Shown here piece by piece: positions 8,352-21,361 of a DNA stretch of 40,831 bases (the first letter of the stretch is position 1; every line of letters begins with the position of its first letter). Under the pieces are notes generated by a model. That model made no database searches and was not told the origin of the DNA. It worked only from the letters and a program-made list of their open reading frames with translations. The DNA comes from a virus. The position numbers and the translations under genes were made by a program. The stretch lies in IMG/VR virus record IMGVR_UViG_3300034682_000410, positions 1 to 40,831 of that record; one strand, written 5' to 3'.

Positions 8352-8458
8352 AAAACCTCCATTCGTTTTTTGGCTGCATCAATAATCTGTTTAACGAGGC
8401 GTGATAATTGGGACTCAGGGCAGCCAGCAATAGGCCACCCGGCAACAGCAAGTTGCAT
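8342..8458 (-). CDS. cIII: CIII protein (short form), stabiliser of CII
   Basis: The start at 8458 (AAAGGAG six bases upstream) gives MQLAVAGWPIAGCPESQLSR, matching the opening of lambda CIII (MQYAIAGWPVAGCPSESLL) as I remember it. Residues 14-34 form the amphipathic helix that in lambda inhibits the FtsH protease, protecting CII and promoting lysogeny. At 38 residues it lacks the C-terminal tail of lambda CIII (54 residues), but the tail is not needed for the core activity in lambda. A full-length CII gene is present downstream of cro, so the pair should work together. The end overlaps the next gene's ribosome site. Confidence 0.85.
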   Translation of the reverse strand: MQLAVAGWPIAGCPESQLSRLVKQIIDAAKKRMEVLCK

Positions 8459-8525
8459 GGCGTGCTCCTTTAGTTTGTGTGTTTGCATAGCGGAATACCC
8501 TCGTAAGGGCATTTTGATATGCAAT

Positions 8526-20568: not shown

Positions 20569-20600
20569 TTGACATCATTGAGCAATTGAGCAATTATAAA
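20569..20600 (+). promoter_or_regulatory. Late promoter pR' with tandem Q-site candidate
   Basis: TTGACA at 20569-20574 lies just after Q. Two perfect copies of ATTGAGCA (20577-20584 and 20585-20592) follow, then an AT-rich -10 region around 20593-20600 (ATTATAAA). The tandem repeat with 8-bp period is what a Q21-type factor binding as two protomers would need. The exact -10 hexamer is uncertain because TATAAA is 20 bases from the -35 box. Confidence 0.68.
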
Positions 20601-20757: not shown

Positions 20758-20790
20758 AAGCCCCTGAGTTAATAGCTCCGGGGCTTTTTT
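20758..20790 (+). terminator. tR'-like terminator
   Basis: AAGCCCC and GGGGCTT pair around a 15-base interior with an additional AG/CT pair, followed by TTTT. It lies about 160-190 bases after pR', so without Q a short leader RNA like lambda 6S RNA would be made. Confidence 0.85.
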
Positions 20791-20803
20791 ATTGGAGAAA
20801 TCT

Positions 20804-20899
20804 GGTAAGAGCATTAGGCAGACGGCAATCCATATCTTCGGAATAGCACTCGTGAAACGCCGATGTGGAATTGTGACGACGCTCGTCAGTGCTCTTTCC
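20804..20899 (+). ncRNA. Structured RNA module 1 in the late leader
   Basis: Begins GGTAAGAGCATT and ends CAGTGCTCTTTCC. AAGAGCATT (20807-20815) pairs with AGTGCTCTT (20888-20896) as a 9-bp stem with one G-U. The interior has further short helices. The same two ends bound a second module at 21084-21154 with a different interior. The 3' arm contains TGCTCTTT, the core of rrn boxA. No reading frame is evident. Confidence 0.5.
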
Positions 20900-21083
20900 A
20901 GTTTTCGTCAACGTTAACGACTTTGCGGGTTTTTAGAAACGAACCACAAAGATAAATGCAAACGATGATCAATTCCTGGCAGTAGCCTAACGGCTAAACA
21001 CCAGTGAGGTCTTCCAGCTCCTCATCAACAAATCTGGCGCATTGCGGCCCTGAGATGTGATTAATAAGTCAGGGCACACAACA

Positions 21084-21154
21084 GGTAAGAGCATTGAACA
21101 AGGCGAAAACCGGTAGACGCGACTAATGCCAGCCGGGCGACCAGTGCTCTTTCC
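21084..21154 (+). ncRNA. Structured RNA module 2 in the late leader
   Basis: Begins with the same 12 bases (GGTAAGAGCATT) and ends with the same 13 bases (CAGTGCTCTTTCC) as module 1 and forms the same closing stem. The 46-base interior is unrelated and contains CCGG/CCGG pairing. The tRNA-like element begins at the next base. Confidence 0.5.
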
Positions 21155-21266
21155 GTTGTGGTTAGCTCAGCGGGTTAGAGCTTTGTTCATGCTTGCCAAT
21201 GCTGCATGCGCGAGTAAATAGTTCAGAAATGAACTTAGCGTCGGTTCAAATCCGGCACCACAACCA
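21155..21266 (+). tRNA. tRNA-like element with an enlarged anticodon arm (probable pseudo-tRNA)
   Basis: Acceptor strands TTGTGGT (21156-21162) and ACCACAA (21257-21263) pair perfectly. The D arm is canonical: GCTC-AGCGGGTTA-GAGC (21165-21181). The T arm is canonical: GTCGG-TTCAAAT-CCGGC (21240-21256). A 5-nt variable loop (TTAGC) precedes it, and an anticodon-type stem GTTCA/TGAAC (21185-21189 and 21230-21234) is present, but its loop is 40 nt instead of 7. CCA follows the acceptor stem directly, without a discriminator base. It is a decayed or interrupted tRNA gene or a tRNA mimic; no anticodon can be assigned. Confidence 0.5.
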
Positions 21267-21310: not shown

Positions 21311-21333
21311 ACCAGCTTCGGCTGGTTTTTTTA
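21311..21333 (+). terminator. Terminator after the tRNA-like element
   Basis: ACCAGC-TTCG-GCTGGT followed by TTTTTTT. Q-modified polymerase would have to pass it to reach the lysis genes. Confidence 0.82.
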
Positions 21334-21361
21334 TTTCTGTTTCCTGATGAATTTCGGGAAA

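Follow-up and report, generated by a model that had tools for sequence, protein, structure and literature searches.

A conserved phage RNA with a tmRNA-type tag frame and a 5′ domain predicted to pair with host tmRNA

Introduction

Bacteria rescue stalled ribosomes mainly by means of tmRNA, which is known to influence the growth of some phages. Phage tmRNAs, a tag-less inhibitory phage tmRNA, and phage anti-sRNAs encoded at the lambdoid position considered here are already known. Methylophage Melnitz carries a complete two-piece tmRNA (PMC9004378), and phage DS6A a tag-less form, the tRNA half only, that inhibits E. coli tmRNA (PMC11915505). AgvB and AsxR are Hfq-bound phage anti-sRNAs of 51-60 nt directed against GcvB and FnrS (PMC4104026). 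Here we analysed 40,831 nucleotides of viral DNA (positions 1 to 40,831 of IMG/VR virus record IMGVR_UViG_3300034682_000410; this whole stretch is referred to as the window), in which two hairpin modules behave as slots for exchangeable hairpin cassettes flanking a tmRNA-like, tmRNA-antisense core. Coordinates are those of the window and, unless marked otherwise, refer to its + strand.

The core shares with tmRNA (ssrA, in its standard and its permuted two-piece forms; RF00023 and RF04321) an AUAAAU-GCA-AAC-GA resume context, as found in permuted and beta forms, and a 10-codon, hydrophobic-ended tag that is followed by pseudoknots. Unlike tmRNA, it lacks a recognisable tRNA-like domain, its 5′ domain is antisense to host tmRNA, its tags never end in LAA, and exchangeable hairpin slots flank it. 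Like the Melnitz and DS6A RNAs it is phage-borne and related to trans-translation, but it comprises the message half only together with the antisense, draws no ARAGORN call, and scores below the Rfam cut-off. Its position 3′ of pR′ in lambdoid phages and its predicted base-pairing with a host RNA recall AgvB and AsxR, whereas its greater length, its tmRNA target and its coding tag set it apart; RNAs of the AgvB/AsxR kind are 51-60 nt long with a conserved 3′ part and a variable 5′ end, while this core is ~180 nt long and conserved in its 5′ part. Within the literature searched, coverage of which was partial, neither a phage antisense to tmRNA nor a tmRNA tag domain combined with such an antisense was found.

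Hairpin Modules in the Late Leader

A consensus scan placed a pR′-like late promoter (TTGACA-17-AATTAT, 10/12 matches) at 20569..20597, in the same order as in HK620, where pR′ is annotated. It is followed by a tR′-like intrinsic terminator at 20758..20792, read from the sequence as a GCCCC...GGGGC stem and then TTTTTT, and the RNA-coding stretch ends at a further intrinsic terminator found by consensus scan (21311..21334). The two modules thus lie where an earlier note on this DNA had put them, just 3′ of tR′ in the late leader. That note had also described them as a repeat with a common closing stem and unrelated interiors, which we confirmed: copies of GGTAAGAGCATT start at 20804 and 21084 and copies of TGCTCTTTCC at 20890 and 21145, the interiors of 20804-20900 and 21084-21154 are unrelated in sequence and differ in length, and the full pattern with its gap was absent from 100 shuffles. 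Both copies fold as the note stated (z-scores of -3.45 for copy A and -1.89 for copy B), the arms AAGAGCAUU/AGUGCUCUU forming a 9-bp stem plus GG/CC across a U.U mismatch, extended outward by CUGG/CCAG in copy A and by CACAAC/GUUGUG in copy B. The 9-bp pairing held up in relatives as well, the stems being retained through many compensatory changes in dozens of them, including phages with few arm letters in common.

The earlier note had further proposed that the modules could be small or sponge RNAs, or else boxA elements whose accessibility depends on folding. The letters TGCTCTTT are present in the 3′ arms of both modules, at a leader-transcript position, as in rrn and lambda boxA. In relatives, however, the 3′ arms co-vary with their partners (CAATACTCTCTTAG, GGACTCAAACAG, TACCCTTTAAAATG, CAGTGAGATTTCCG, and others) and boxA is lost, so that it is the helix which is conserved and not the boxA letters; boxA as a conserved feature is thereby rejected. 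Since, in addition, the strongest conservation lies between the modules rather than in them, a reading of the modules as separate small RNAs or as folding-controlled boxA elements is scarcely credible. The suggestion of a sponge RNA nevertheless pointed in the right direction, as the product of the locus is antisense to an RNA of the host; the modules themselves are not two separate small RNAs.

The modules are better described as slots. Slot A (20804..20900) is the first module, a hairpin cassette whose stem covaries in relatives and whose interior family is also present in other phages. Slot B (21077..21161) comprises the second module and the outer stem CACAAC/GUUGUG, and its stem covaries likewise. 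The extractable slot interiors group into 27 families, and for nine of these members are present in more than one slot; the interior of slot B in the window is also present in slot A of a relative (L122), and that of slot A resembles slot B of another (L003). Some phages have a third slot. No known Rfam family matched the cassettes in the window and none plausibly did so in relatives, nor did the slots or the stretch from PK2 to PK3 (described below) give any signal as extra antisense to ssrA; no target was found for any cassette.

Several further features of the slots were observed. In the slot interiors of eight loci (L007, L008, L014, L023, L025, L043, L085, and L119) a T-arm-like hairpin (GGGTTCGANTCCC) is stacked on the slot stem, so that some cassettes look like closed tRNA-like domains. 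Five loci (L023, L036, L049, L053, and L085) have another conserved domain, TTCGTGGGTAACAACGGGCATATCGCCTTAGTAAATCCC...CCACGAA, 3′ of slot B and before the third slot. The heptamer CACAACA at 21077-21083, in the outer arm of slot B, is the GcvB R1 target motif used by AgvB, and GUUGUGG at 21155 can pair either with it or with CCACAAC at 21258.

A Widespread Core with a Coding Tag

Between the two modules lies a conserved core of ~180 nt that the earlier note had missed. BLAST with the region matched 768 phage records, and the matches were concentrated between the modules. The core occurs in lambdoid phages such as HK620, in which it is flanked by pR′ and an annotated terminator. P1 and P7 carry it upstream of their tRNAs and Felix O1 inside the tRNA cluster; it is also found in Kuttervirus, Jedunavirus, Schitoviridae, and Chaseviridae. 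In the records listed, existing annotation at the core consists of nothing or of short hypothetical proteins. A model search of 16 host genomes for the element, an insensitive one, returned nothing, and pattern scans of 764 genomes yielded one P1-like copy, the other matches being due to chance. Elsewhere in the window, a lambda cIII thermoregulator was recognised at 8416-8471 on the - strand (RF01804, 63 bits).

At 20958..20990 the core contains a tmRNA-type resume codon, GCA, and the tag frame ANDDQFLAVA-stop. In each of the 96 distinct cores analysed, the resume site, which in the window reads AUAAAU-GCA-AAC-GAU..., leads into a 10-codon frame. This set had been filtered for that length; the list before filtering contained a single exception, a chance match. 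Most of the IMG/VR loci were found by a pattern requiring TAA within a range of offsets, and their stop position is therefore partly selected; loci fetched by BLAST, with no stop codon in the query, have the same 10-codon frame. Within the tag frame 15 of 22 changes are synonymous, against an expectation of 26% (p=5e-5), and each of the other two frames has 3/21 synonymous changes. The last sense codon may be GCC, GCT, GCG, or GCA but always specifies alanine, and all three stop codons occur. The frame thus combines a resume codon with a short tag ending in small hydrophobic residues, as in tmRNA. Both the permuted and the beta tmRNA models of Rfam align at the tag site in the window, below the cut-off, and in 17 of 17 whole phage genomes the tag site is the best hit of the permuted model. 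On a metagenomic viral contig, an element at L031:143-175 has the tag ANDEKFALAA, which ends in LAA, and an unlike upstream region; ARAGORN made no call there, and the element is perhaps an ordinary phage tmRNA.

The tag is followed by two H-type pseudoknots. PK2 (21004..21037) is formed by GUGAGG/CCUCAU with CCAG/CUGG and shows two-sided changes in both stems among 61 sequences; PK3 (21038..21075), formed by CGCAU/AUGUG with GCCCUGA/UCAGGGC, shows two-sided changes as well. When both were counted together with an internal CUUUG/CAAAG helix, 95.2% of cells were paired and two-sided changes numbered 134; shuffles gave 34, and slid controls never more than 28. Of the pseudoknots that follow the tag in tmRNA (PK2-PK4), the core accordingly has covarying counterparts of two; no PK4 was seen in it, slot B occupying its place. 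In tmRNA, PK1 stands a short way ahead of the resume codon. The CUUUG/CAAAG helix next to the resume codon of the core is 91.5% paired with some two-sided changes, and its strand is also complementary to PK1 of the host.

A 5′ Domain Antisense to Host tmRNA

The first part of the core, at 20899..20949, is complementary to host ssrA nt ~54-106, as judged by alignment score, strand and background controls, and duplex energy. A conserved block within it, UAGUUUUCGUC, is perfectly complementary to E. coli ssrA 96-106 (tag codons 3-6; the E. coli sequence was confirmed against annotated genomes). In the rest of the domain the match extends in collinear order past the resume codon and into pseudoknot 1, spanning ssrA 53-109 overall. 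The antisense alignment in the window scores 41, above the maximum of 34.5 in 2000 shuffles, and the sense, reversed, and complemented controls score 16, 18, and 23. The duplex with ssrA is predicted at -41.7 kcal/mol, a value that none of 500 shuffles reached; majority-type duplexes range from -42 to -51 kcal/mol against shuffle means of about -21 to -29, with cofold in agreement for most types. The predicted duplex contains bulges, and host PK1 would need to open for it to form.

The relation recurs across phage types. The best ssrA matches overlap ssrA 81-104 in 14 of 14 types; for 12 of these at most 1/1000 shuffles scored as high (15/1000 for the TH53 and L025 types), the antisense shuffles keeping base composition only and the sequences tested being related. 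Differently built 5′ domains (Felix O1, Omen, EP1, Faunus, and SSEM1) still match ssrA 80-108, as in the AAAAATAG...ACGAAAACTACG of Omen. Compared with the best site in 1.8 Mb of other bacterial DNA, both strands included, about half or more of the ssrA sites score higher with the window, L020, L021, and L006; with Felix O1 only 6 of 119 ssrA sites do so, and with P7, whose 5′ domain is of the P1 type, none. The target itself is near-constant across gammaproteobacterial hosts, GCAAACGACGAAAACTACG being the commonest of the forms retrieved. As expected of an antisense RNA, the complementarity is specific and falls on a site at which the target functions.

The match might instead be a by-product of shared tmRNA ancestry and internal folding constraints, in an RNA that does something else: all copies are related, and the 5′ domain also has the internal CUUUG/CAAAG helix, which shows some covariation. 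Yet sense-strand alignment to ssrA scores at background, copies that lack the internal GAAAC partner still retain GUUUUCGU, and three to four blocks of the match lie in collinear order, aimed at the functional centre of tmRNA. We therefore regard a non-functional match as highly improbable. The in silico evidence is good both for the antisense relation of the phage RNA to host tmRNA and for a tag frame that is conserved as a protein-coding sequence.

These two properties bear differently on the main rival to the mechanism proposed below, in which the RNA acts as a plain inhibitor: by binding host tmRNA it would block trans-translation, and the tag it carries would go unused on the ribosome or serve only as a decoy. 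Such an inhibitor would account for an antisense match that spans the resume-codon region and the tag, and it has parallels in the phage anti-sRNAs at the same lambdoid position and in the tmRNA-like RNA of DS6A, known to inhibit E. coli tmRNA. It does not account for the tag, which is constrained as a protein (synonymous excess, fixed length, and a last codon that is always alanine), when an unused frame should decay. Pure inhibition is for this reason unlikely, although it deserves serious consideration.

Search for a tRNA-Like Domain

A coding tag must be served by some tRNA-like domain, which raises the possibility that the phage RNA is an autonomous tmRNA whose tRNA-like domain is too divergent to be recognised or is a separate piece, the antisense arm serving to remove the host competitor. 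A candidate piece is present in the window at 21155..21266, where a tRNA-like 3′ element, GTTGTGG...CCACAACCA, has a D arm, a T arm, and CCA, and an enlarged anticodon region without an anticodon (Rfam tRNA 36.1 bits with a 47-nt insert, fold z -3.16, no ARAGORN call). As antisense to ssrA this element is borderline (18/500 shuffles). L036 has a similar element with hairpins inserted in the D loop and the anticodon arm; in most relatives an unlike GTTGTGG...CCACAAC element takes its place, and this replacement speaks against the element as the missing domain.

Searches for an alanine-accepting tRNA-like domain (acceptor stem, T arm, and CCA) also count against autonomy. With RF00023 and RF04321, no such domain exceeded the cut-off in 17 whole phage genomes, and no closing helix or P2/tRNA-like domain joining the core ends was consistent among relatives. 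The second hit in HK620 was rejected, as it falls inside an O-antigen gene. In several virulent relatives a promoter lies directly 5′ of the core (TTGACA-17-TAGATT in L006 and others; similar in L261-L263) and therefore leaves no room for a 5′ acceptor strand. ARAGORN called no tmRNA in the window and a single one over all loci, at L119:3200-3574; its tag, AKAVRLRKCSFRCGECAG, is unlike that of the core family, it overlaps the real element and a tRNA-Met, and it looks like a false call. An ARAGORN-predicted ssrA has been mentioned for Felix O1-like phages in the Moogle and Mushroom papers, and our ARAGORN run on 18-36 kb of Felix O1 called none. Taken with these results, an autonomous phage tmRNA appears rather improbable.

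A Possible Exchange of the Message Half of tmRNA

The preferred reading, to which we give an even chance, is that, by pairing with host tmRNA, the phage RNA hides the host resume codon and tag and provides a phage tag in trans, while the host supplies the alanine-charged tRNA-like domain. Two steps have strong in silico support. In the first, the 5′ domain would pair with nt ~53-109 of host tmRNA; pseudoknot 1 would be opened or adjoined by the duplex, and the region of the resume codon would be covered together with the first codons of the tag. In the second, after a linker of ~12-16 nt (in the host, 11 nt separate PK1 from GCA), the phage RNA carries a resume codon, a 10-codon tag, PK2, and PK3. 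We infer the tag swap itself from this arrangement: host tmRNA-SmpB would enter a stalled ribosome as usual, and with the host tag masked it is the phage tag on which translation would resume. Because the phage RNA has no recognisable tRNA-like domain, the alanine-charged domain would come from host tmRNA-SmpB.

Pairing with tmRNA may also free the phage linker, in the majority type, from the local CUUUG/CAAAG hairpin, in which case the phage tag would become usable only once the complex has formed. In the predicted complex this CUUUG is instead paired to host tmRNA, and binding could therefore switch the phage tag on. As to the fate of the product, ClpX recognises the host tag by the LAA at its end. 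None of the phage tags of the core family seen here ends in LAA, which makes altered proteolysis plausible, and one may speculate that ribosomes are rescued with a product that is not sent to ClpXP. Slots A and B would be exchangeable add-ons to such an RNA.

A fuller version of this proposal, on which we lean slightly to the doubtful side, is that the phage supplies a trans-acting, mRNA-like domain which attaches to host tmRNA by strand exchange and redirects trans-translation, so that a phage tag is added. The result would be a chimeric tmRNA made of two RNAs and occurring in nature, with swappable hairpin cassettes as extras. For a message domain held only by base pairing that would be usable on the ribosome, the nearest precedent is the two-piece tmRNAs.

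If ~770 sequenced phages, P1 and Felix O1 among them, target the resume codon of tmRNA, phage control of ribosome rescue would be common, and overlooked because annotation tools see nothing at the core. Should the tag swap also prove true, it would represent a new way to hijack a host RNA, in which the tRNA half of the host is kept and the message half exchanged.
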